This document shows, piece by piece, positions 19,815 through 32,558 of a stretch of DNA of 64,000 nucleotides. Source of the DNA: Sulfuriferula multivorans (GTDB taxonomy: Bacteria; Pseudomonadota; Gammaproteobacteria; Burkholderiales; Sulfuriferulaceae); the NCBI RefSeq assembly GCF_003851125.1, contig NZ_BGOW01000036.1:1-64000 (forward strand). The letters run 5' to 3'. Within the stretch, counting starts at the first letter, position 1. Each line of letters opens with the position of its first letter. A program made the position numbers and the translations under genes. The notes under the pieces were generated by a model. It was not told the origin of the DNA and made no database searches. It saw only the letters and a program-made list of their open reading frames with translations.

Positions 19815-22712
19815 GTTTCAATCCGCACCCGGCCAATTGGCCGGGTGATGCGCACTGGCCTACATCCAGTCCAATGCCAACCAGCAGTTTCAATCCGCAC
19901 CCGGCCAATTGGCCGGGTGATGCGCGGCTTCTGCGCTACCCAACAGCGCAAATTCATGTTTCAATCCGCACCCGGCCAATTGGCCGGGTGATGCCCATTC
20001 AGCACATGCGCGACAATCATGCGCTTGCCGTTTCAATCCGCACCCGGCCAATTGGCCGGGTGATGCATGGGTTTTTCAGCAAGGCCGGGGACGTTATCCA
20101 GTTTCAATCCGCACCCGGCCAATTGGCCGGGTGATGCCACCCAGCAGCGCAAGCGCAACGCGGCGGCGCTGGTTTCAATCCGCACCCGGCCAATTGGCCG
20201 GGTGATGCACCCGGTGCCCGGTTTCCTTCCCCTGTTTCTCATGTTTCAATCCGCACCCGGCCAATTGGCCGGGTGATGCCCCCGGCATGGCTTGAGAGAA
20301 TGCACAACCACCGGTTTCAATCCGCACCCGGCCAATTGGCCGGGTGATGCCAGGAAAGACGAGGAAACGCCAGGATGGCCGACCGTTTCAATCCGCACCC
20401 GGCCAATTGGCCGGGTGATGCTTAAGCGCGGAGAATGAAATGGAACTGAACAAAGTGTTTCAATCCGCACCCGGCCAATTGGCCGGGTGATGCTTGCTTA
20501 CCGGTTCGTGTGGCGCGTACGGATGAGGGTTTCAATCCGCACCCGGCCAATTGGCCGGGTGATGCGTAAATCGTGGGCCTCATCTACGTCCCAGAACGGT
20601 TTCAATCCGCACCCGGCCAATTGGCCGGGTGATGCAAAAAGGTCAGAAGCATTCCGAGGCTTCAAAATTGTTTCAATCCGCACCCGGCCAATTGGCCGGG
20701 TGATGCATTCTCACGCTGGAACAGCAGGAGTTCTCGTTTTAAGTTTCAATCCGCACCCGGCCAATTGGCCGGGTGATGCAATAACATCAACGTGGCTTGA
20801 ATCAGTAGTGTAAAGTTTCAATCCGCACCCGGCCAATTGGCCGGGTGATGCATTTCAGCGAGGTTTTACAACAAGTCGGTCTTATGTTTCAATCCGCACC
20901 CGGCCAATTGGCCGGGTGATGCGCAGACCGAGATCCTCGCCTCGCATCGCCAAAATGTTTCAATCCGCACCCGGCCAATTGGCCGGGTGATGCGGGTGTG
21001 CGCCGAATGCAATCAGCGCCGCCTGGTGTTTCAATCCGCACCCGGCCAATTGGCCGGGTGATGCGTGGCGGCGCTGCGCACCGACCAGGCCAGCGGCGTT
21101 TCAATCCGCACCCGGCCAATTGGCCGGGTGATGCGGTCAGCTTGCGGTCGATCTTGTAGGCCAGGCTGGTTTCAATCCGCACCCGGCCAATTGGCCGGGT
21201 GATGCGGCACCGGCTGGTATGGGCGCTGGATGCCTTGCAGTTTCAATCCGCACCCGGCCAATTGGCCGGGTGATGCGGGCGTTATCCGCGCTTGAGATTG
21301 CCGCGCTTGCGTTTCAATCCGCACCCGGCCAATTGGCCGGGTGATGCTTTGCATTTTTGGTTCTCCTGTCAGTCTGGTTGAGTTTGTTTCAATCCGCACC
21401 CGGCCAATTGGCCGGGTGATGCGCGCGATGTACGCGGCGTGGAAACGCTGCAAACGCCGGTTTCAATCCGCACCCGGCCAATTGGCCGGGTGATGCCCGG
21501 GGTGTGGGCGAAATGGTGATTCCGCATGGATGTTTCAATCCGCACCCGGCCAATTGGCCGGGTGATGCGCAGGTGCAGGCGCTGAACTGGGACAGCATCA
21601 CCGTTTCAATCCGCACCCGGCCAATTGGCCGGGTGATGCCGTGCCGCCCGCGCTGGTGGAAACACCCATCCCGGTTTCAATCCGCACCCGGCCAATTGGC
21701 CGGGTGATGCCTGGCGATCTGCTCAACCAGATCCGCCTGTATGTCGTTTCAATCCGCACCCGGCCAATTGGCCGGGTGATGCGGTCACGGATTTGATTGC
21801 CACGATCCAGACCAAAGTTTCAATCCGCACCCGGCCAATTGGCCGGGTGATGCAGCGCCGCAATGGCCCACCAGATAAGGCCAACCACGTTTCAATCCGC
21901 ACCCGGCCAATTGGCCGGGTGATGCCCAGGCCGAAATGCTCGACCCTGACCGCACAATCGTTTCAATCCGCACCCGGCCAATTGGCCGGGTGATGCATCC
22001 GGTATCGTGATGCGCTTGACCTACCGCAAAGTTTCAATCCGCACCCGGCCAATTGGCCGGGTGATGCTAGCTAAGCACGTCGAGTGGATTTTCGCAGGAG
22101 TGTTTCAATCCGCACCCGGCCAATTGGCCGGGTGATGCATCCGCGAGCCGGACTCGGAAATCTGGCTGACCTGGTTTCAATCCGCACCCGGCCAATTGGC
22201 CGGGTGATGCCATCACAAAGCGCCGATTAGCCGTCGGCGCACGTTGTTTCAATCCGCACCCGGCCAATTGGCCGGGTGATGCAATATTTTTTGCTACACT
22301 ACGAAAACTCGCAGATGGTTTCAATCCGCACCCGGCCAATTGGCCGGGTGATGCTGAACCGCGAGCTGCTGCGCGGCACGACGGCGATGTTTCAATCCGC
22401 ACCCGGCCAATTGGCCGGGTGATGCAAACCACCATAGACACCTCCCCAATGGTGGTGTAGTTTCAATCCGCACCCGGCCAATTGGCCGGGTGATGCGCGG
22501 CCAGCTTTCCCTGCAGGTCGTCGGTGCAGCGGTTTCAATCCGCACCCGGCCAATTGGCCGGGTGATGCCGCTTCGGCACCATCCGGGCGCACATCAGATA
22601 GCCAGTTTCAATCCGCACCCGGCCAATTGGCCGGGTGATGCTTTGCACGCTGATCTCGCCGCCCGGCGTATTGCCGTTTCAATCCGCACCCGGCCAATTG
22701 GCCGGGTGATGC
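19815..22712 (-). CRISPR. type I-C CRISPR array: 41 repeats, 40 spacers
   Basis: 41 copies of a 37-bp repeat by my reading all identical, at 19815, 19887, 19958 ... 22605, 22676, separated by 33-38 bp spacers (mostly 34-35). In transcribed sense (minus strand) each repeat begins GCAT and ends CGGATTGAAAC, the standard I-C 3' end. The centre is a perfect 22-bp palindrome: CACCCGGCC, AATT, GGCCGGGTG. Cleavage by Cas5c at the stem base would leave an 11-nt handle. The leader-proximal end is at 22712, next to cas2. No terminal repeat is degenerate and no spacer is duplicated to the eye. Spacers look phage- or plasmid-like but were not searched. Confidence 0.98.
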
Positions 22713-22890: not shown

Positions 22891-23181
22891 TCAGGCAATG
22901 AGAGGCCCTTCAAAGTCCACGGAGCGGAAGCAGCCATGTTGTTTGACGCGCACTTCCACTGGCTCGGTGATGCGGTAGAAACGCAGATTATCCTGACTTT
23001 CGTCGATTTCTGCGAGCAGTGTACGCTCCAGTTGTTCAAACTGCATTTCGTTGACGGTGCATTCGAACACGGATTTCTGTACGCGCTGTCCCATCTTTTC
23101 GCAGGCTTTTGCAACCCGTCTTAGTCGCTTGCGTCCGGCCGCAGTTTCGGTGGAGACATCGTAGGTGACGATGATGAGCAT
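22891..23181 (-). CDS. cas2: CRISPR-associated endonuclease Cas2, type I-C
   Basis: 96 residues with ferredoxin-like fold; forms the Cas1-Cas2 spacer integrase. The catalytic-site Asp8 is in [11 protein letters not shown], followed by [26 protein letters not shown], typical of Cas2. An AGGAAA ribosome binding site overlaps the cas1 stop (TAG), and the ATG is 8 nt further on. Last cas gene before the leader. Confidence 0.97.
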
Positions 23182-23189
23182 GCGGTTTC

Positions 23190-24224
23190 CTATTTTGCCA
23201 GATAAGGCAGGTAGCCTTCCATCTCGCCCCGGATAGTGCGTGCGATGAAACGTGCCTGGATGAAGGGTAGCAGGCCGATGGGGATTTTGTTTTCGGTGAG
23301 CGGATGGGTGATTTCTTCCTGTTTGCGTTCCTGCCAGGCGGTGACGACAGCGCGGCGGCCTTTGTCGTTGAGCATGACAGCACCGCCTTCGCGTTCGTCA
23401 AAATCAGCGGCAGTGATTTGGCCGCGGTTAATGAGGGTAAGGGCCAGCCGGTCGGCAAGTATCGAGCGGAATTCTTCCTGCAAATCCAGCGCGAGCGCGG
23501 CACGGCCGGGGCGCACGGCGTGGAGGAAACCGAGTTGTGCATCCAGCCCGGCGGCCTCAACGGCGGAGCGGCAGTCATTCATGCTCATGGCGTAGAGGAA
23601 GGAAAGCAGCGCATTGAAACGATCCAGCGGCGGGCGACGGGTGCGGCCATTGAGTGCAAATGATGCACGCGTCTGGGGTTTGACAATGAGGTTGAGGGCA
23701 GCGAAGTAGCCGCGCGCGGCTTCGCCTTCCACCCCGCGCAGTTCGTCCATGGTTTTGGCAACGGCCGCTGCGCGCAATGAGGCGGCGAGGTTGTTGGCAG
23801 TGCGGGTGAGTATTGCGGCTTCATCTGGGTCGGCGGCTTCGCGTGCACCGCGCTGCAGGTTGGTGCGGCTGTTTTTGAGTTTTCCCGCGACTACGGCACG
23901 CGCAAACTCCAGGGTGAAAGCGGGTTCCAAGGCTGCGCGGTGATGCGCCTGACGCAACAGGATATTGCCGGAAACCGGGCCTTCGAGCCGCGCTTTGAAA
24001 CGCCCTGAATCATCCAGCAACACCAGCGATTTGCCTTCATCCGCCAAGCGGTGCATGAGCGCGGGCGAGACCATGACATTGCCGAAACAGACCAGCCCGC
24101 CCAAGTGATGCAGCGGTACCTGGAGCTTTTTCTCACGCTCCACGTCGATACGCAGGGTGGCGTTTTCCAGATGCGCGTAGGCGTGCGGCGTCATGACGTA
24201 GAGCGTGTTCTGGACGGTGTGCAC
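23190..24224 (-). CDS. cas1: CRISPR-associated integrase Cas1, type I-C
   Basis: 344 residues from a GTG start at 24222-24224, preceded by CGGAGAA and placed 2 nt after the cas4 stop; a longer in-frame extension overlaps cas4 and is unlikely. The start [20 protein letters not shown] and length agree with I-C Cas1. The metal-site Glu lies in [13 protein letters not shown], the His in [17 protein letters not shown] and the Glu in [13 protein letters not shown]. It integrates prespacers at the leader-repeat junction with Cas2. Confidence 0.97.
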
Positions 24225-24226
24225 CG

Positions 24227-24853
24227 CTATTTCTCCGGGTTGAATAAATCTTGTCTTTGTTGGTGCTGCTTGCTCTGTCCGGCCAGCGCCTCCGGCTGGC
24301 AAATGTCTTTCAAAGAGCACTCTTTACAGCGCGCATCGTTCACCGGAGGTGGGAGCTTGCCCGAGGCCAGCATGGCGCGAATGGCATCGGCGGTTTCTTC
24401 CACCAGTTGCCTGAGTTCCGGTGTGATGGATACTTCTCGCCGCCGGTGGCTGGTGGCGTGAAAAATCGCACCTTTGGGCACGGGGCGGTTCAGCATTTCC
24501 TCCAGGCAAATCGCCTGCGCGGCGAGCTGGATGTCGTCGTGCAACTTCTGACGCTTGGCGCCGTGTTTGAACTCGACGGGATACACACTGCCGTCTGGAT
24601 GGAACTCAACCAGATCGGCCTTGCCAATCAGGTTGAGCCGGTCGCACCACACGGGCAACGCACGCTCAACACGTACGCCAGATTTGATCTCATAACCCGG
24701 CGTATCAACAAGATGATGCACGGCCTGCCCGCGCGCCGTGTGTATGTTGTCCTCGAACGCCTGTTCCAGATGAATCAACCCACACTGGCGCGGGCAGTAG
24801 ATCCAGTGTTGCAGGGCAGAGAGGGCGACAACTTCGTCTGCAGGATTTGCCAC
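24227..24853 (-). CDS. cas4: CRISPR-associated exonuclease Cas4, type I-C
   Basis: 208 residues, RecB-like nuclease that trims prespacers and selects the PAM-bearing end. Visible: LSALQHWIYCPRQC (Cys20), GKADLVEF (Asp80), YPVEFKHG (Glu94, Lys96) and a C-terminal cluster Cys176, Cys179, Cys185, giving the four Fe-S ligands. The GTG start directly follows the hicA TGA stop in the same reading frame. I see no Shine-Dalgarno in front of it, so translation probably depends on ribosomes ending hicA. In standard I-C loci cas4 follows cas7 directly. Confidence 0.96.
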   Translation of the reverse strand: MANPADEVVALSALQHWIYCPRQCGLIHLEQAFEDNIHTARGQAVHHLVDTPGYEIKSGVRVERALPVWCDRLNLIGKADLVEFHPDGSVYPVEFKHGAKRQKLHDDIQLAAQAICLEEMLNRPVPKGAIFHATSHRRREVSITPELRQLVEETADAIRAMLASGKLPPPVNDARCKECSLKDICQPEALAGQSKQHQQRQDLFNPEK

Positions 24854-25096
24854 TCAATCAAACAATCGTTGGATGAGTTCATCGCGCGCGAGGCCGTGAT
24901 GCGCGGCTACGCTGGCGAGAATGGAGGCGAGCGTACCCAGCCTGAGCGGGTCGTGATTGGGGATGGTGATGTGATGCTCGCCACGAACGGAGCTAGTCAG
25001 CCGCATGTGACTGCCCGTCTGGCGTGTGACGCTGTGTCCCATTCGCTCAAGGCGCTTGACCAGATCCGCCCCGGAGAGATCACGCGGCACTCTCAT
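24854..25096 (-). CDS. hicA: HicA-type toxin (mRNA interferase)
   Basis: 80 residues with the small dsRBD-like HicA fold: DLSGADLVKRLERMGHSVTRQTGSHMRLTS, catalytic His30 in the GSH motif, then HHITIPNHDPLRLGTLASILASVA. HicA toxins cleave mRNA and tmRNA and are neutralised by HicB. The ATG overlaps the hicB stop as ATGA. It lies inside the type I-C cas operon between hicB and cas4; the same-frame TGA-GTG junction with cas4 is unusual. Activity inferred from family. Confidence 0.9.
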   Translation of the reverse strand: MRVPRDLSGADLVKRLERMGHSVTRQTGSHMRLTSSVRGEHHITIPNHDPLRLGTLASILASVAAHHGLARDELIQRLFD

Positions 25097-25299
25097 GCCG
25101 TCAGCACTTCTTCACGGGTGATGTGCAGGCGGATCAGACCGGGCAATTTTCCTTCGTCAAAGTGGCAATGCACCGCGTCGCGGACCTGGGCGTGCAGGCT
25201 GGGTAGATCGTCGGCCTCGGTCACAATATCCACGCCAACAGCACGCGCAACATAACCGCCCTCTGGCGCTTCTTCAACAATGAAATGGATTTCGCTCAT
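25093..25299 (-). CDS. hicB: HicB-like antitoxin (short form, DUF1902 type)
   Basis: 68 residues from the ATG at 25297-25299, which has GGAGG 8 nt upstream; the open frame extends further but without a start signal. MSEIHFIVEEAPEGGYVARAVG, DLPSLHAQVRDAVHCHFD is the partial RNase H-like HicB fold. Homologues are often mislabelled '2-oxoisovalerate dehydrogenase subunit'. It has no C-terminal ribbon-helix-helix or HTH domain, so it is unlikely to autorepress through DNA binding by itself. Pairs with the overlapping hicA. A 124-bp gap separates it from cas7c. Confidence 0.85.
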   Translation of the reverse strand: MSEIHFIVEEAPEGGYVARAVGVDIVTEADDLPSLHAQVRDAVHCHFDEGKLPGLIRLHITREEVLTA

Positions 25300-25423
25300 G
25301 GATACTGTCCTCCAATAACAAAGATAGCTTCTAGTATCGCCTATCCCACAGATAAAAAATATTGACCTTGAGCCGGACTCTTCAACACGACTTCTGGCTG
25401 GGTGCGGTAAGCGGCTCCGGCAT

Positions 25424-26308
25424 TTAGAACCCGTTGATTTCTTCAGGAACCAAGTTTTCCAGGTCGGCAAGCGCGTAGCTGCCATCTGGATTGACAGTGA
25501 GTGTCCGATGCACTTTGGCCGAAGAATGCTGGCCCGATTTGCAGTTGTGTTTCCACCAGATGACTTTCAGCACCTCCATGCTGCCCGCCGGACGTGCAGA
25601 TGATTCGTCATTTTCAAGCAATTTGGGAAGTACCTGCTTGATGGCTTCGGCATCGGCGTCGGAGAAGCTGGTTCTCTCGGCAAGCTGCGGGTTCATGCTG
25701 CCGCAGAACACATAAACGCCTTGGTCAACGCGGTGCTTCATTCCCATTGTATCCGAGCCGCGCTTGGTGCCGTCGCCTTCGCCACTGACGCTCTTGGTGA
25801 TCTGGGTGCTGGTGATGTCTATGGGCTCGACGCTGAAGGCGGATTGGACGGTGACCGGGCCGCGAATGCCGATGGATACGCCGGTGTCGCCTTCATCGTC
25901 GCTGCCATCGTCCTTTTTCTTTCCGGCTTTCTTGTTGCTCTTCAGCGCAAACAATTGACCAAAGGCACGCACGTCAAACCACTTCTCGCAGGCGAGCTTG
26001 GCGGTCTCGTCAGACCCCAATTTGTTACCCAAAACAGCTTCGGCGCGTGCGCGCAGACTTTTTGCCTCATCTACTTTCCGATCATCTGACTGAACGAAGA
26101 TCATGTTTCCGTCATCGTTCTTACCATCTGCTACCCAGCGTTCCAGCAGCCGATCCCGAATCTTCCGCTTGATCGAAACATCCGTCATTTCTCCGAAGTT
26201 TGAATAGTCAGTGCGCGGACGGTTGCCATTGAGTGGATCACCATTGGGATTGGCGTTCTTGACGCGGAGGATGACGGCGAAGTCGATTTTGTTTTGCAAA
26301 GTAGTCAT
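25424..26308 (-). CDS. cas7c: Cascade backbone protein Cas7c (Csd2)
   Basis: 294 residues, RAMP-fold backbone subunit that binds the crRNA spacer along its length. Typical Csd2 segments: NKIDFAVILRVKNANPNGDPLNGNRPRTDY at the N-terminus, VSIKRKIRDRL, FDVRAFGQLFA and GIRGPVTVQSAFSVEPIDI. The loop with KKAGKKKDDGSDDEGD is low complexity. A strong AAGGAG precedes the ATG, 20 bp after the cas8c stop. Immediately after its TAA stop an ATG opens a 13-codon frame, then the hicBA pair begins. Confidence 0.97.
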   Translation of the reverse strand: MTTLQNKIDFAVILRVKNANPNGDPLNGNRPRTDYSNFGEMTDVSIKRKIRDRLLERWVADGKNDDGNMIFVQSDDRKVDEAKSLRARAEAVLGNKLGSDETAKLACEKWFDVRAFGQLFALKSNKKAGKKKDDGSDDEGDTGVSIGIRGPVTVQSAFSVEPIDITSTQITKSVSGEGDGTKRGSDTMGMKHRVDQGVYVFCGSMNPQLAERTSFSDADAEAIKQVLPKLLENDESSARPAGSMEVLKVIWWKHNCKSGQHSSAKVHRTLTVNPDGSYALADLENLVPEEINGF

Positions 26309-26328: not shown

Positions 26329-28233
26329 TTATTCGGCAGGTGTTTTTTCGGCGCTGGCGGCAGTATCCGCCTTGGGTGGGTTCAATGCCTGTCGCTGACA
26401 GTGGTAGCCAAGCAGGAATTCGCCAGAGAGTTTTCGATCGTCAAGGAAGTCCTCTTCGGCAAAGCTTGAAACGACTTCGTCGTGCAGTTTTTCCATTTCA
26501 TACAAAAAGCCGGGGCGTTTGGCGCGTAGGCGCGACTTCGATGGCGTCAGGGCAAGTTCGATAGTGCGCCAAGTGCTCGCTGGCCGGTCAGCGAAGCGCT
26601 GCATCAGTTTGGCGGCGGAAGTATCGCGTGTTTCGCCGCCGACATACAGCCCTCTGCCTTCAATGTGTTCAGCAATGGCGAGGAGGCGGCCGTACAGGTA
26701 ATCCCGGGATGTCCGGTCTGTTTCCAGTGTCATTTGATACTCCCTTTTATTGAAAAATCCCTTGAAAAGCGCACAAGAAATACCCAAGTTTTTCTCCCAT
26801 TCCCAGTGTTCCAAACCCACCCGGTTATAGGTTCGGCGCACCACCGATTCAACGAGATCGCGGGGCAGTGGGCGACCATCGACAATGCAGGGCAGAAGCC
26901 GTTCCACCGTGGTTTTGCGCAATTTGTCGTCGAGGCGGCGACCGAAGGCGGCTTCGGCGATGTCGCGTGGGGCTGGCGTGCCAACAAACTTGGAATCCTT
27001 GCCGAAGTTTTGCGGCCAGGCGTGCTTTTCATGCCAAGCCTGAATTCTGTTCAGAAACTCCGAACCCAACAGTTCGCGATAGAAGGTGATGGCCATACGC
27101 CCAGGTGTTGCAGAGTCCAAACCCATGACGACGATGCCTTCAGTCGGGTCGAGCTGTGCGCGATACCCGGAAATCGCTTTCTTCAGCCGTAGTGCGAATG
27201 CCTGGCCAGTATCGCCCGTATCATGAAGCACGCTTTCCGTTGCCGCTTGAGCGGTCTCTTCACTGCTGAGAAAGAGCGAGAGCGAGTCCTTGAATGGATC
27301 GGGGACGGGCTTGCCTGAAACAGCCCAGGTTACAATCACCTGATCTTCGTTTCGATAGGCCTGTCGGTGGATAAGCCAGCGTAAAGCGTTGTGTGCTTTT
27401 TGGGTAACCTCATAACCGACCCCGCACGCTTGCAGGCCAGTATCATCCGTGAATCTGCCTCGGAACGTATAGCCTGAGGCATCATTGGCGCTGATCAGTT
27501 TGGCGCCATCTCCAGCGTGCCTGATTCGCTTGGGATGGCTCACGGCAAGCGCTACGTCCTCGCCAGTAACCATGCATATACCCATCAACTGTTTCGTGCT
27601 GGCATCAAACTTTGCCCAGGCTTCTTGCAATGAAGGGTCTTCCCAAACGGCAGTGCATGGATTGTTGGCTTCCCGGACATGCCAGCGGATAAACGCATCC
27701 CCTTGGTCCCGCTCGCCAGCCTTTGCGGTCAGTAAACGAAAGAGATCAGGGGCTTGATTTTCCCCTGTCCAGCGGGTCAATAACTTTCTATCGGAATCGA
27801 TGTGAAGGATTTTTTCCTTGACTAGATCAGCCACTACGCAGCCCTTGCGAATATATGCAAGCACCGCCTTGGCCTTGGGATGGCTGAATTCGGATTCGCA
27901 CCACTTGCCAAGTTGCGCCTCGTATTCCTTGAAAAATGAAGGTTTTCCGCCGCCGTATCCAGGGTAATCATCCGCACAGTACTGCACTTTGTCACACAGG
28001 GGATGAGGTGGCGGGGTTTTACCTGTTCTGCCCGCCGATTTTTCAGTGGCAGGGATTACTGTCTCTTCTTTCTGGACGATTCTGGCACCCTTAAAATTGC
28101 CATCGGCATCAAGCGTAATTTCGATGTGCGCTTGTTGTGGCGTGTGACTAATCGGCATTAGCCGTTCCGACCCTGGTGGTTCTTGTCCTTTGCACTGCTC
28201 ATAGGTCTCATGGAGTTTCTGAATCCAGCTCAT
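26329..28233 (-). CDS. cas8c: Cascade large subunit Cas8c (Csd1)
   Basis: 634 residues from the ATG at 28231-28233 (MSWIQKLHETYEQC), with GGAG upstream; the open frame above overlaps cas5c and is not used. Csd1 proteins recognise the PAM and start R-loop formation in type I-C, and an internal start often gives a small Cas11c subunit. Visible family segments: CDKVQYCADDYPGYGGGKPSFF, FIRWHVREANN, ANDASGYTFRGRF, and the C-terminal EWEKNLGISCALFKGFF plus YLYGRLLAIAEHIE. Length is at the upper end of the family. Confidence 0.95.
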   Translation of the reverse strand: MSWIQKLHETYEQCKGQEPPGSERLMPISHTPQQAHIEITLDADGNFKGARIVQKEETVIPATEKSAGRTGKTPPPHPLCDKVQYCADDYPGYGGGKPSFFKEYEAQLGKWCESEFSHPKAKAVLAYIRKGCVVADLVKEKILHIDSDRKLLTRWTGENQAPDLFRLLTAKAGERDQGDAFIRWHVREANNPCTAVWEDPSLQEAWAKFDASTKQLMGICMVTGEDVALAVSHPKRIRHAGDGAKLISANDASGYTFRGRFTDDTGLQACGVGYEVTQKAHNALRWLIHRQAYRNEDQVIVTWAVSGKPVPDPFKDSLSLFLSSEETAQAATESVLHDTGDTGQAFALRLKKAISGYRAQLDPTEGIVVMGLDSATPGRMAITFYRELLGSEFLNRIQAWHEKHAWPQNFGKDSKFVGTPAPRDIAEAAFGRRLDDKLRKTTVERLLPCIVDGRPLPRDLVESVVRRTYNRVGLEHWEWEKNLGISCALFKGFFNKREYQMTLETDRTSRDYLYGRLLAIAEHIEGRGLYVGGETRDTSAAKLMQRFADRPASTWRTIELALTPSKSRLRAKRPGFLYEMEKLHDEVVSSFAEEDFLDDRKLSGEFLLGYHCQRQALNPPKADTAASAEKTPAE

Positions 28234-28237
28234 GTCA

Positions 28238-28948
28238 TCACTCCAATTCTGCTGCTTCGTTTTCGACGCTGCGCAGGCTGCCCTTGCCGAACTTCTTTGC
28301 ACCCATGTCTCGAACGAACTTGTGGATGGTGCAATCCTCCGGGCGGATGAAGCGGATATGACCATCGGTCATGGTGGGTCGCCAGAAACGAGCATGCAGT
28401 TCTTTCACGCCCGTTTCGTCGGGGTAGTCGAAGCCGTGGAACATCAGGCTGTAGGCGAGTTCTCCTGCGCCGTCGTAGTCGCCGTCATCTGAGCCAAACT
28501 CACAAGGTTCGGCATAGCCCTGACAATCCCGCGTACCCAGAAAAATGTCCTGCCGACCGCCCCGTTCCAGCATGCGCTGGGCGACGGCGTAGTGTTTGCC
28601 TTCGATCCGGTCGTCTTCCAACTCAGGCCGATACGTGTTCCATTCAAAATGGGCGCGTACTTGGTATTCCACGTCGGCCAGGAAGGTGTAAATGGCCAAA
28701 GTATTACCGCCACCGAATTCCAGTGGCTTGGTGCCCTTGGTCTGGGTGCGGATACGCTTCATCACGCGCACCTCATCAATGATCCAGATGAAGGTGGGCT
28801 TCCAGTAGATGGACTTGGCGATGCCCTTGAGCGCCTCATAGGTCGGGATGTGGTACGAACATTTTTCACCGCCGATTCGTGTCAATGGGTCAGTGAACAG
28901 TGCATGGCGTGCTGAGACTTTGAATTCAATTCTATTTCTTTCAGCCAC
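28238..28948 (-). CDS. cas5c: Cas5c (Cas5d), pre-crRNA endonuclease of type I-C
   Basis: 236 residues from a GTG at 28946-28948, chosen because GGAGG lies 6 nt upstream; it overlaps the end of cas3 by 8 nt (GTGGCTGA). In type I-C this protein replaces Cas6, cutting pre-crRNA at the base of the repeat hairpin and then holding the 5' handle. Family segments: EFKVSARHALFTDPLTRIGGEKCSYHIPTYEALKGI and HFEWNTYRPELEDDRIEGKHYAVAQRMLERGG. No cas6 exists in the locus, in agreement with this role. Confidence 0.96.
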   Translation of the reverse strand: MAERNRIEFKVSARHALFTDPLTRIGGEKCSYHIPTYEALKGIAKSIYWKPTFIWIIDEVRVMKRIRTQTKGTKPLEFGGGNTLAIYTFLADVEYQVRAHFEWNTYRPELEDDRIEGKHYAVAQRMLERGGRQDIFLGTRDCQGYAEPCEFGSDDGDYDGAGELAYSLMFHGFDYPDETGVKELHARFWRPTMTDGHIRFIRPEDCTIHKFVRDMGAKKFGKGSLRSVENEAAELE

Positions 28949-31514
28949 AGAGAACCTCCATTTTTCCATCCGGTGTTTCACTCAAGCCAAACTCAGAACT
29001 GTAGTAGCGCGAGTCGGCCAGGAACAGTATGCCCGTTCCCTCCAGGATTTCCTTCACTGCATCGGCCTTGGTGAGCCGCTCCAGCGTTTGTGGGAACACG
29101 TTTACGGTGAATTGTTGTGCCCGGCGCAACAGGTCGAATTCTTTATCCGGCAGGTAGGCCGCGCATAGCGCGGTGATGATGGCGCGCCCCGCCTCTCCAT
29201 GCGGGACGATGACTCCGCGTGTTGGTGCGTCAATCGCCTTGAACGCCCTAGCGGCGGCCATGAAGGACTGACGCAGGTAGATGTCGGGTGCCTGCCCCTT
29301 GGTTCTGCCATATTCGGCAGTGGCTTGTGTGTTGATTGAGAGCAGGTTGAGCAAGGTGTCGTTGTGCCCCAGTGTTCTATCGGAAGCCGGGTAATCCATA
29401 TCACTGGCACGGGCGAAAAAGTAGTTCTGGTAATACCAAGCCATTGCTTCCGGCCCGATGCGGTTGTTTCTGTACTTGCCGGGATTTTTCTCGTAGTCGT
29501 CCAAAACCCGCTCTGCCTTATCGCGGCCAATGCTGATGTCAGGCAGCATGCCCAGACTTTCATCTTGCGGATTGACGACATGGACAAACCCTACTTTGGG
29601 ATTTCCGTCAGCATCTTTTTGCTTTCCATTACGATTGCAACGCCCCGCCGCTTGGGCGATGGAATCCAGCCCGGCGGTAAAGCGGATGACCGCACTGAAA
29701 TCCACATCTACACCGGCTTCAATCAATTGGGTACTGACGCACAACGTCGGTTCCTGCTTTTCAAGCCGCATCCGTACCTTGGCCAGAATCGACTTACGAT
29801 GCGCCGGACACATACTGGTGCTCAAGTGATAAGTCGGGATAGCGGCCTGTTCACTGCATAGTCGATAGATCGTTTGCGCCGCTTTCTTGGTATTGACGAT
29901 GACCAAGCAGCTACCGGCTCTCGTGGTTTCCTCCCGCGCCAGCGAGGCAATTTCATCCATTGTCCAGCCGCCTGGTTTGCGGCGGTTCAACACATCTACT
30001 CGCTTCAAATCATCAAATAATTTTTTCACATCCGGCATGAGTTCGTTGCCCTCTGGGATGCGAATGGCTCCTTTATTTGCATCGACCTTGTCCAGCAGTG
30101 GCTGAGTGGCGGTACACAGGACGACCGTGCTGCCGCATTGCTCAACCAGAAAATTGATGGCATTGTTAAACAAGTGAACGCAATTGATCGGTAGCGTCTG
30201 GATTTCGTCGAAGATCAGTACGGCATTCGTCAGCTGGTGCATCCTGCGGGCACCACGTGTACCCGCACCAAACAGGGTTTCCAGAAATTGCACACTGGTG
30301 GTGTAGATGACCGGCGCGTCCCAGTTCTCCGAGAGAATTTTTCCGCGCCAGCTTTGTTCTTCAGGGGTGAGGTTGGAATGGTGTTCGAGAACCACGCTGC
30401 TCGGCTCTATGCCCTCCGGCTCAAGGATTTTTCGCACTATGTCAGCGTTCTGGTCGATGATGGACGTGAATGGAATGACGTAGATCACCCGATCCATTTT
30501 CACGCCGTTCGTTTCCTTGTTCGCGTGATGCAACGCAAATCGTAGGCTAGCCAGTGTTTTGCCACCGCCAGTCGGCACAGTGAGAGTGTAGATGCCTTTG
30601 CCGCGCGACGCGCCTTCCAGGCAATGGCGGGAGATGTCTTGCCGAAGGTTATCGATAGGGTGACGGGGTTGAAGGGTTTCTAGGTGCTTTTCCAGACGGT
30701 CGATCAAGACATCCCATGCGGCATATCCGCCATTCGCCCTGAGTTTCTTTCCCTTGGGATTCTCAAAGTCGGCGCTATCAATGCGGTCGGCGTCAATGAG
30801 GCAACTGAACAGAAAACGCACCAACAATCCGATTTGTTGTTGCGCTACCATGCTCTTGTCATCTTTGCCCGGTGCGACACGTACAATCCCGGAAATCGCT
30901 GCTTGCATGGCTTTGAGCATTTCAGGCTTGCTAGTGAGTTCGCGAGCGCGGGTAAGGATAGCCTCGTCGGCGATGCCAAGTGCTTCATTGAAGTGGCTCC
31001 GGTCATCGGCCTTGTTCATGCGCCTGCCGAATACGTCTTCGCCAAGGCTGTTCGTATCGGAAGACAGGCAGTCGATCAGCCCGGAATGGTGGGAGGCGAT
31101 GCAAAGGGAGAGGATTTGTCCGACGATCTGTCCAAGCTGTCCCTGTTTGGAGAGTTCCCGCCACACCAATTGGGCTCCGGCGGTGGAGTGGTCGATCTTG
31201 CCCTTCAGCCCGGCTGCATCGACGAATTCTTCGTCCTCATCCTGGTTGAGTAGGCCGACGGCGGACTTGATGTAGGCCTGAAACGCTGCGCTGAATTTCC
31301 CCAAATCGTGGAGCAGGCCGATCAGCTCCCCTTGTTTATCCAAACCGACTTTCCCTGCGAATACGTTTGCCAGCATCGCCACGTTACATAAATGGGTCAC
31401 GAGTGATTGCGTAGCACTATCCGATTCACGATGGTGGGCGATGAACTGCGGTTTGCTCGCCACGTCCCCAGCTTCTGTGCCTTGGGCTACTTTTTTCGCT
31501 GTATGTGTTTTCAC
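28941..31514 (-). CDS. cas3: Cas3 HD nuclease-helicase, type I-C
   Basis: 857 residues. The HD nuclease domain shows THLCNV (His41), LLHDLGK (His69-Asp70), DHSTAGAQ and ASHHSG. The superfamily 2 helicase domain follows with Walker A VPTGGGKTLAS (near 310), the DExx motif IFDEIQ, and helicase motif VI-like QAAGRCNRNG (near 625). It unwinds and degrades the nontarget strand after Cascade binding. The start is a GTG at 31514 with a poor Shine-Dalgarno; a GTG 17 codons later is an alternative. First gene of the interference block, 78 bp after the WYL gene. Confidence 0.96.
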   Translation of the reverse strand: MKTHTAKKVAQGTEAGDVASKPQFIAHHRESDSATQSLVTHLCNVAMLANVFAGKVGLDKQGELIGLLHDLGKFSAAFQAYIKSAVGLLNQDEDEEFVDAAGLKGKIDHSTAGAQLVWRELSKQGQLGQIVGQILSLCIASHHSGLIDCLSSDTNSLGEDVFGRRMNKADDRSHFNEALGIADEAILTRARELTSKPEMLKAMQAAISGIVRVAPGKDDKSMVAQQQIGLLVRFLFSCLIDADRIDSADFENPKGKKLRANGGYAAWDVLIDRLEKHLETLQPRHPIDNLRQDISRHCLEGASRGKGIYTLTVPTGGGKTLASLRFALHHANKETNGVKMDRVIYVIPFTSIIDQNADIVRKILEPEGIEPSSVVLEHHSNLTPEEQSWRGKILSENWDAPVIYTTSVQFLETLFGAGTRGARRMHQLTNAVLIFDEIQTLPINCVHLFNNAINFLVEQCGSTVVLCTATQPLLDKVDANKGAIRIPEGNELMPDVKKLFDDLKRVDVLNRRKPGGWTMDEIASLAREETTRAGSCLVIVNTKKAAQTIYRLCSEQAAIPTYHLSTSMCPAHRKSILAKVRMRLEKQEPTLCVSTQLIEAGVDVDFSAVIRFTAGLDSIAQAAGRCNRNGKQKDADGNPKVGFVHVVNPQDESLGMLPDISIGRDKAERVLDDYEKNPGKYRNNRIGPEAMAWYYQNYFFARASDMDYPASDRTLGHNDTLLNLLSINTQATAEYGRTKGQAPDIYLRQSFMAAARAFKAIDAPTRGVIVPHGEAGRAIITALCAAYLPDKEFDLLRRAQQFTVNVFPQTLERLTKADAVKEILEGTGILFLADSRYYSSEFGLSETPDGKMEVLCG

Positions 31515-31592: not shown

Positions 31593-32558
31593 TTATCCAT
31601 ATTGGCCTCTGGCGCGGTCGAGCTGAATTTTGACGGCTGCTTTCAACGCATCCGGCGCGATCACTTCTACATCCGCGCCGTATTTGAGGATGTCCATGAT
31701 GAGTTCTTTGTCGTTGGAATAGGGGATGCTGAGTTCATAGCGGCCGTCTTCGAGCCAGCGGGATTGTTGCTCGGGGTGCCAGGTTTCATCGGCGACCCAG
31801 CGGGCGCGGTGGGCGGTAAAGCGCAGGATGGCGGTGGCGACGGGTTGGCCTGCGAAGATGCCGTAGGCGCTGGCGAGCTGGCGGTTGAGGGTGGTGTCGG
31901 GAAGGGTTTTAGCGGGCTTGTCCAGCGTGGTTGCCTGGCGGATGCATTCGACGGCGAAAATGCGCAGGCCTTTTTTCTGATGGCACCAGGCGTCGAGGTA
32001 CCAGTTGTCGCGGTAGTGGGTGAGGCGTTGCGGCGAGATTTCGCGTTCGCTGGTCTGGCTGCGGTCGCGGTTGTAATACTGGATGATTAATCGTTTGCGT
32101 TGCAGTACGGCGCCTGCGACGCTCTGAAAATGGCGCAGGTCTTTGGTGCGGGCGGCCATGGACAGGATGCGGATGCGTTTGTGCGCTTCGCCGCTGCCGA
32201 GATGTTCGGTCTGGAGGAGCGCGTCGATGCGGGTGCGGATGGGCGCAAGTGCGGAATCCAGCAGGCCGGGCTGGAGGGTTTGCAGCAGGTGATTGAGGGT
32301 GATGAGGGCATGGAGTTCTGCGCTGGTGAACCACAGGCCGGGCAGGGGGTGGTGGCCGTCCGCGGTGTCGTAGCGGTAGCCGCCGTATGCTGTGTCGAAG
32401 ATGAGGGGCGCGCCGAGTTTGTTGCGCAGGTCGGTGATGAGGCGGGTGAGTTTGGAGCGGGAAATTTCCAGTTCGTCCATCAATGCCTGGCGGCTGATGG
32501 TGCTGCGCCGGCCATCGAGCAGGCGGTGCAGCCGGTAGAGGTCGTCGAGTTTGCTCAA
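31593..32558 (-). CDS. WYL-domain transcriptional regulator (YafY-like)
   Basis: 321 residues. An N-terminal winged helix of the DeoR/HTH_11 type (LYRLHRLLDGRRSTISRQALMDELEISRSKLTRLITDLR) is followed by a WYL domain with the segment LTHYRDNWYLDAWCHQKKGLRIFAVECI and a C-terminal WCX domain. WYL regulators bind nucleic acid or small ligands and control several CRISPR or phage-defence loci. It lies directly upstream of cas3 on the same strand with no visible terminator, so it is probably the first gene of the cas transcript and its local regulator. The regulatory sign (activator or repressor) cannot be read. Confidence 0.9.
   Translation of the reverse strand: MSKLDDLYRLHRLLDGRRSTISRQALMDELEISRSKLTRLITDLRNKLGAPLIFDTAYGGYRYDTADGHHPLPGLWFTSAELHALITLNHLLQTLQPGLLDSALAPIRTRIDALLQTEHLGSGEAHKRIRILSMAARTKDLRHFQSVAGAVLQRKRLIIQYYNRDRSQTSEREISPQRLTHYRDNWYLDAWCHQKKGLRIFAVECIRQATTLDKPAKTLPDTTLNRQLASAYGIFAGQPVATAILRFTAHRARWVADETWHPEQQSRWLEDGRYELSIPYSNDKELIMDILKYGADVEVIAPDALKAAVKIQLDRARGQYG

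Follow-up and report, generated by a model that had tools for sequence, protein, structure and literature searches.

A HicBA-family gene pair at the cas7-cas4 border of type I-C CRISPR loci and its association with the adaptation genes

Organization of the locus

The stretch of DNA analysed here (the 'window', 64,000 nucleotides from Sulfuriferula multivorans) carries a complete type I-C operon on its minus strand, which reads cas3-cas5c-cas8c-cas7c-hicB-hicA-cas4-cas1c-cas2 and is followed by a CRISPR array. All seven of its cas genes are matched by NCBIfam models, and the features of the locus are as follows:

31593..32558, minus strand: gene for a WYL-domain regulator, at the far border of the exchanged effector block
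28941..31514, minus strand: cas3 (NCBIfam model match)
28238..28981, minus strand: cas5c (NCBIfam model match)
26329..28248, minus strand: cas8c (NCBIfam model match; start approximate)
25424..26308, minus strand: cas7c (NCBIfam model match)
25300..25423, minus strand: cas7c-hicB gap of 124 nt, of which the 89 nt on the hicB side (up to 25388) are common to relatives with other effectors
25093..25299, minus strand: hicB, putative short antitoxin of 68 aa (predicted fold and constant pairing with hicA)
24854..25096, minus strand: hicA, putative toxin of 80 aa (PF07927 match; Gly28 and catalytic His30 present)
24227..24853, minus strand: cas4 (NCBIfam model match)
23190..24320, minus strand: cas1c (NCBIfam model match)
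22891..23181, minus strand: cas2 (NCBIfam model match)
19815..22712, minus strand: CRISPR array with 41 repeat copies of 37 nt

A preliminary description of this DNA had placed hicB and hicA, co-oriented and overlapping, between cas7c and cas4, and this layout is confirmed: the two genes share the bases ATGA, and the GTG start codon of cas4 directly follows the hicA stop codon. A scan of positions 24700-25600 returned no sigma-70-like site, and a search of the window's locus at 66% identity returned no ectopic CRISPR repeat. The genome as a whole gives three HicA-family matches and one Cas7c match. The stretch just before hicB (25300-25388) is similar in the window and in four related loci (L072, L134, L135 and L157) despite their unlike effectors; it contains an inverted repeat, GATAG...CTATC, which was recognized by eye and is a possible operator or leader.

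Identity of HicA and HicB

The product of hicA matches PF07927 at 44.6 bits (cut-off 27), and its predicted model (pLDDT 93) puts His30 where strand 2 begins, the position at which the catalytic histidine of HicA has been placed (PMC12297915). A fold search with the HicA model gave 1whz, 6g26 (twice) and 5yrz as the four best PDB matches, with probabilities of 1.00 but E values of 0.016-0.039, and a profile search of solved structures with the HicA sequence gave nothing at 0.01. The first of these entries, 1whz, we take to be a HicA. By family match, fold matches and His30, the window protein is thus predicted to have the HicA fold with its catalytic histidine.

The partner gave no match at 1e-3 against Pfam, NCBIfam or PADLOC, and its identification as a HicB is based on its predicted fold and its constant pairing with hicA. 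Compared with the partial RNase H fold of HicB proteins, the predicted model (pLDDT 90) has the order E-E-E-H-E; the best fold matches (1wv8, 3k6q and 2yzt) have probabilities of 0.87-0.95 but weak E values of 0.06-0.65, and a sequence profile reaches 2yzt at an E value of 0.013, beside clear chance matches at 0.02. The preliminary description was also correct in calling this HicB a short form: the 68-residue protein is a single domain, from which the C-terminal DNA-binding part that is usual (if not defining) for HicB is absent. The pair is a module of the HicAB family, embedded in type I cas genes.

Recurrence among relatives

Relatives of the window's HicA were gathered with two peptide patterns from a collection in which 84,980 species are each represented by a single genome, and the best 80 of 294 were kept (loci are labelled L and genomes G; many of the loci are MAG contigs). 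A pair was counted as cas-linked if cas7 or a cas remnant lay upstream of it, or cas4 downstream, on the same strand. Of these nearest relatives (best 80 of 294), 37 directly adjoin cas genes at the type I-C cas7-cas4 junction, and 43 have no cas genes in the stretch examined; the latter, six of which fall inside the main clade described below, indicate that hicBA also lives alone. The possibility raised at the outset that the pair is unique to this genome can be set aside, as the arrangement recurs in dozens of loci. Among close relatives of the window's HicA, plasmids contributed two records, both cyanobacterial, and phages none, so that those collections offer no sign of a recent plasmid or phage origin.

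Forty-two cas-linked pairs were compared: 36 of the 37 (L181, which duplicates L065, was dropped), five that genome searches added, and that of the window. In every one both genes are intact, overlap by 4 nt and encode a HicB of 68 aa; Gly28 is kept in all 42 HicA proteins and His30 in 41. The genes are also tightly packed: in 25 of 38 measurable loci the cas7-hicB gap is at most 35 nt, and in 34 of 39 no more than 35 nt lie between hicA and the matched cas4, an arrangement that leaves little room for a promoter before hicB in most loci. In the window's own lineage the cas7-hicB gap is longer (82 nt in L072, 84 nt in L134, 124 nt in the window) and of similar sequence. The suggestion of the preliminary description that control may come from the cas transcript is therefore in keeping with the layout and with the short gaps of most loci, but less so with the 124-nt gap of the window itself.

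The cas7-cas4 junction as an insertion site

Cas7c matches over the cut-off were found in 32 of 369 genomes of the class and 29 of 398 of the phylum (the window's own genome being counted in each), and the junction sample was made up of the window and 58 other regions; it leaves out six further matches over the cut-off, which lie on small or second contigs. Standard I-C loci had been assumed to run directly from cas7 to cas4; this holds for most of them, at most 130 bp separating the two genes in 37 of 53 sampled junctions, but not for the remainder. Long insertions, defined as more than 400 bp of extra DNA in a same-strand junction, stand in 16 of the 53 cas7-cas4 junctions (11 of 28 in the class, 4 of 24 in the phylum, plus the window), in 4 of 52 cas4-cas1 and 2 of 48 cas3-cas5 junctions, and in none of the cas5-cas8 (0/55), cas8-cas7 (0/58) and cas1-cas2 (0/51) junctions. 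For loci that are not fully independent, the comparison of 16/53 with the pooled 0/164 gives p 2e-11.

Toxin-antitoxin (TA) genes, HicBA included, are found in 12 of the 16 cas7-cas4 insertions when only genes inside the junctions are counted. Four insertions (with that of the window) hold HicBA and five Unstab_antitox and/or ParE; L050 has DUF4258 with an MqsA-like gene, L063 the same two with RhuM, and L055 DUF433 with DUF5615; three hold RhuM alone, and L068 a transposase-like gene. Pfam scans covered the insertions of L048, L049, L050, L055, L109, L111 and L114 and parts of those of L063, L068 and L113; resemblance to similar sequences, judged by eye, is the basis for RhuM in L063, L064 and L066 and for the L113 antitoxin, and two of the matches (MqsA in L050, ParE in L113) fall below the cut-off. 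Within this sample hicBA itself is a minority trait: apart from the window, it occupies 3 of the 28 junctions from the class and none of the 24 from the phylum.

At the cas4-cas1 junction the insertions consist of an antisense Phd+PIN pair, Unstab_antitox with ParE, a nucleotidyltransferase with HepT, and a BRO-like gene (by eye); the two at cas3-cas5 are a Phd+PIN pair and an antisense Unstab_antitox. Long open reading frames in the cas4-cas1 gaps were rejected as genes, as genes matching Pfam occupy the other strand. In L134 (8857-9521, minus strand) and L072 (11724-12472, minus strand) this gap is filled by a second, antisense TA pair, a PemK/MazF-like toxin with a ribbon-helix-helix partner (by eye for L072); the window, unlike these near relatives, has no such gap. 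One I-C locus (L148, 7798-10177) seemingly holds three TA sets: in addition to hicBA, it has an antisense Phd+PIN pair before cas1 and, by eye, an addiction-antitoxin-like gene, also antisense, ahead of cas4. Single degenerate CRISPR-repeat-like sequences (22-27 of 33-37 bases) lie between cas genes, outside arrays, at L139:4144, L157:9920 and L052:10387, and are candidate crRNA-like regulators. The cas7-hicB gap of L145 contains, by eye, a repeat-like hairpin that ends in GGTTGAAAC, just before hicB.

In Bacteroidota, where the matches of 30 of 33 genomes were examined and cas4 was reached in 28, eight loci have long cas7-cas4 insertions, mostly BRO or RhuM-like and two with an antisense PIN; in Actinomycetota such an insertion is present in 1 of 19 loci. 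The border is often occupied in Bacteroidota by BRO/RhuM-like or DUF559 genes or by IS200-like transposases, as in L258, L262, L263, L264, L265, L273 and L277 (the third, fifth, sixth and seventh by eye). HicBA was seen in none of the long gaps of these 28 Bacteroidota and 19 Actinomycetota loci, and the counts of long insertions in these other phyla indicate that the hotspot is not universal.

Loci that have lost the I-C effector

Five loci (L136, L137, L160, L165 and L173) have lost their I-C effector genes and keep an uninterrupted hicBA, with His30 in four of them. Two are from Tepidimonas (L136, T. fonticaldi; L137, T. charontis) and have a piece of the start of cas3 upstream of hicBA and pieces of cas4 and cas1 downstream; in the other three, hicBA follows a C-terminal stub of cas7. 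In the genomes of these five loci and of L164 (T. sediminis), whose completeness is unstated, searches gave no Cas8c, and no Cas7c beyond the three stubs. The genomes of L165 and L173 (G800 and G801; completeness likewise unstated) gave no Cas1 and no Cas3 over the cut-off, and those of L164 and L160 (G799 and G802) gave Cas1 and no Cas3 over the cut-off.

That the Tepidimonas loci stand in genomes devoid of any Cascade was ruled out, as a type I-E operon lies just downstream: in the genome of L137 (G798) the downstream genes match type I-E CasA and Cas7e, and a like Cas3 stands in the same place in G797. In L137 (8250-16176) the I-C remnants and the intact hicBA lie just upstream of a transposase-like gene and the type I-E operon, an arrangement that looks as if one CRISPR subtype had replaced the other. 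Between L136 and L137, hicBA differs by one silent change in 147 codons; in the cas4 piece (130 codons) there are ten changes, 5 of them silent and 5 replacements.

The catalytic histidine of HicA is a tyrosine in L173, so that it is lost in 1 of 5 effector-less as against 0 of 37 other loci (p 0.12, not significant). The sample was found through HicA, and decayed loci that have lost hicBA are invisible to it.

Lineage, selection and effector exchange

A tree of HicB and HicA from 84 loci (42 cas-linked and 42 not), built on a short alignment that leaves 30 of 81 inner branches open, requires seven changes of the cas-linkage label; 500 shuffles of the labels averaged 28.1, and none of them reached so low a value. 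A single clade, with support of 100/98, unites 37 cas-linked and six unlinked loci; its members are mostly Pseudomonadota, plus one from Methylacidiphilaceae and one unlinked row from Myxococcota. The cas-linked pairs outside it are L073 with L211, L062 with L065, and L184. For pairs of loci picked by hand, some of which share lineages, the dN/dS of hicA is 0.06-0.22 in 13 of 14 with a defined value, and that of hicB is 0-0.29 in 15; the window and L072 give a hicA value of 0.44, which derives from just 3 silent and 4 replacement changes. These ratios indicate that hicBA is under purifying selection.

The pair has diverged along with the adaptation genes. Across 30 loci (the 35 with all five genes, less four failing the length filter and less L181), HicBA distances correlate with those of Cas4 (r 0.64) and Cas1 (r 0.63) and with those of Cas7 at only 0.18, and the partial correlation with Cas7 falls to 0.01 given Cas4 and 0.05 given Cas1. 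Effectors from dissimilar Cas7 branches stand beside near-identical hicBA. The window and L072, which belong to the same genus, are 93% identical both in the WYL regulator and across hicBA-cas4; in the effector block between, they have only two short common stretches (62 and 109 bp), and identity resumes at 25388, 89 nt before hicB. The sequence comparison points clearly to an exchange of effectors in situ.

In five further hand-picked pairs with differing effector cassettes (L143/L147, L149/L150, L148/L151, L073/L211 and L158/L174, the last a comparison of two isolates), DNA identity sets in no more than 2 nt away from the start codon of hicB: just upstream 11-24 of 60 bases agree, and from the ATG onwards 74-87 of 90. 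In four pairs without exchange, 48-60 of the 60 upstream bases agree. The effectors of L149/L150 are the least distant of the exchange pairs (Cas7 dN 0.42). In L139/L157 and in L134/L072, the break lies inside cas7 rather than at hicB. Selection for an intact hicB is one possible cause of a break at the start codon.

A proposed addiction module on the memory side

That hicBA stays with the memory half of the locus while the effector half is swapped suggests that it helps to prevent the loss of that half from cells, and the reading we prefer, at a probability of about one in two, is that of an addiction module tied to the adaptation side of type I-C loci. It draws on the recurrence of the arrangement at this junction, the intact and closely packed genes with their catalytic residues, the clustering of cas-linked loci on the tree, the purifying selection, the co-divergence with Cas4 and Cas1, the exchange seams, the survival of hicBA after effector loss and the TA genes of other families in the same junction. 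On this account, an I-C lineage would have taken up hicBA, a type II TA pair, as a lasting component of its adaptation side (hicBA-cas4-cas1-cas2-array), transcribed within the cas operon. HicB would have a short life, and its renewal would depend on continued reading of the operon; if a deletion, a polar insertion or silencing put an end to that reading, the supply of HicB would fail, HicA would cut mRNA and growth would stop, such that cells losing the CRISPR locus would be selected against. Such a lock would be blind to Cascade, any effector cassette that keeps hicB translated being sufficient, and effectors would therefore be exchangeable as far as hicB, with the pair, the adaptation genes and the spacers remaining in place. 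The guarding role proposed in the preliminary description persists as the best reading, but its CreTA-like part, dependence on Cascade, is unsupported: hicBA is intact after loss of the I-C effector, follows Cas4 and Cas1 rather than Cas7 and stays through effector exchange, and the window's locus gave no ectopic repeat at 66% identity. Against the addiction reading itself stand the I-C loci that have been lost around hicBA, the seams that fall inside cas7, the relatives that live apart from cas genes, the hicA ratio of 0.44 for the window and L072, and the restriction of the trait to a minority of loci.

The main rival, appreciably less probable in our judgement, is a passive hotspot, in which the border between effector and adaptation genes tolerates insertions, mobile TA pairs land there, and hicBA is linked to cas4-cas1 with no role in CRISPR function. 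BRO, RhuM and DUF559 genes and transposases do occupy the same border, the 0/164 at other junctions may reflect harm to the complex when cas5-cas8, cas8-cas7 or cas1-cas2 is broken, and 43 of the 80 nearest relatives (best 80 of 294) have no adjoining cas genes. Chance landing accords less well with the single, well-supported clade in which 37 of 43 loci are cas-linked, with the common strand and tight packing, with the purifying selection on the pair, and with the presence of TA genes in 12 of 16 insertions (inside junctions only). A back-up by abortive infection, in which phage shut-off of transcription or an attack on CRISPR would let HicB decay and HicA stop the infected cell, seems unlikely; with this layout HicB would need to be renewed from the same operon, and a coupling of immunity with dormancy has been proposed earlier (PMC3506569), but there is no sign here of infection as the trigger, and the pair tracks the adaptation genes rather than the effector.

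We consider a guard gated by Cascade in the manner of CreTA, the effector complex restraining a toxin that its loss would free, to be highly improbable. The placement of the pair in the operon, the tyrosine of the effector-less L173 and the repeat-like stretch before hicB in L145 (by eye) could be cited for it. Yet the persistence of intact hicBA after loss of the I-C effector argues against it: four of the five such loci retain His30, and the genomes of all five gave no Cas8c and no Cas7c beyond stubs, G800 and G801 also no Cas1 and no Cas3 over the cut-off; effectors from dissimilar Cas7 branches beside near-identical hicBA, the lack of an ectopic repeat in the window and the non-significant link between loss of the histidine and loss of the effector weigh in the same direction. 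Just as improbable is a regulator of the operon, in which HicA would trim the cas mRNA between the effector and adaptation genes and so set their ratio: the pair does lie between the two modules and the HicA fold belongs to an RNase family, but unrelated toxin families, some of them antisense, occupy the same or the next junction, and most I-C loci manage without any toxin there.

A bolder form of the addiction reading, which we offer only tentatively and regard as doubtful, is that hicBA acts as a protein lock that polices module exchange: effectors would be replaceable only at a seam that keeps hicB translated, which would protect cas4-cas1-cas2 and the spacers and fix the point at which effectors plug in, other TA families doing likewise in other I-C lineages. 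If the addiction reading is true, the persistence of CRISPR memory through effector turnover would be explained by a small protein lock on the memory half, in place of an RNA guard acting on the effector, and the old proposal of a coupling between immunity and dormancy in cas loci would become testable with a two-gene module, which is carried by named isolates (for example, Thiomonas delicata DSM 16361, L140, and Acidithiobacillus ferrivorans DSM 22755, L174). The seam, lying at a single start codon, also provides a countable marker of effector exchange.

Relation to known systems

The presence of TA pairs in type I cas loci is already known, having been reported in 2013 (PMC3936711). The window pair, with hicB and hicA both enclosed by type I cas genes (cas7c and cas4), belongs with those systems, which likewise have the antitoxin before the toxin and lie mostly on the strand of the cas genes; their Phd/PIN, Unstab_antitox and RhuM families recur here. 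The section on TA pairs in that paper, however, mentions neither HicAB nor a fixed junction, and makes no connection with adaptation genes. HicB was listed in 2006 as loosely associated with cas genes (MCA0653 and MTH321; PMC1462988, Table 3), an entry that resembles the present case in having HicB near cas genes and differs in giving no subtype, position or role. Searches of the open-licence literature gave no description of a HicBA pair between cas7 and cas4 of I-C loci, of its joint inheritance with the adaptation genes, or of the seam.

When compared with HicAB type II modules in general (PF07927), the pair shares the HicA fold, the catalytic histidine at the start of strand 2 and overlapping genes, has a partner whose predicted fold weakly resembles that of HicB, and differs in its 68-aa HicB without a DNA-binding part and in being built into a cas operon. 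CreTA, as described in PMC9458426, is likewise a toxin inside a type I cas locus that is proposed to make loss of the locus costly; it is made of RNA, with a crRNA-like antitoxin and ectopic repeats, and needs Cascade to restrain its toxin, whereas the present pair consists of two intact protein-coding genes with no ectopic repeat in the window at 66% identity, and its uninterrupted state in effector-less loci and genomes suggests no need for Cascade. The closest parallel to the exchange itself is the in situ replacement of effector modules beside a fixed adaptation module and array (PMC6452270), in which effector genes are similarly shuffled while adaptation genes and array are kept; the loci described here differ from the exchanges presented there in having a TA pair at the border, whose start codon is the seam in five lineages.
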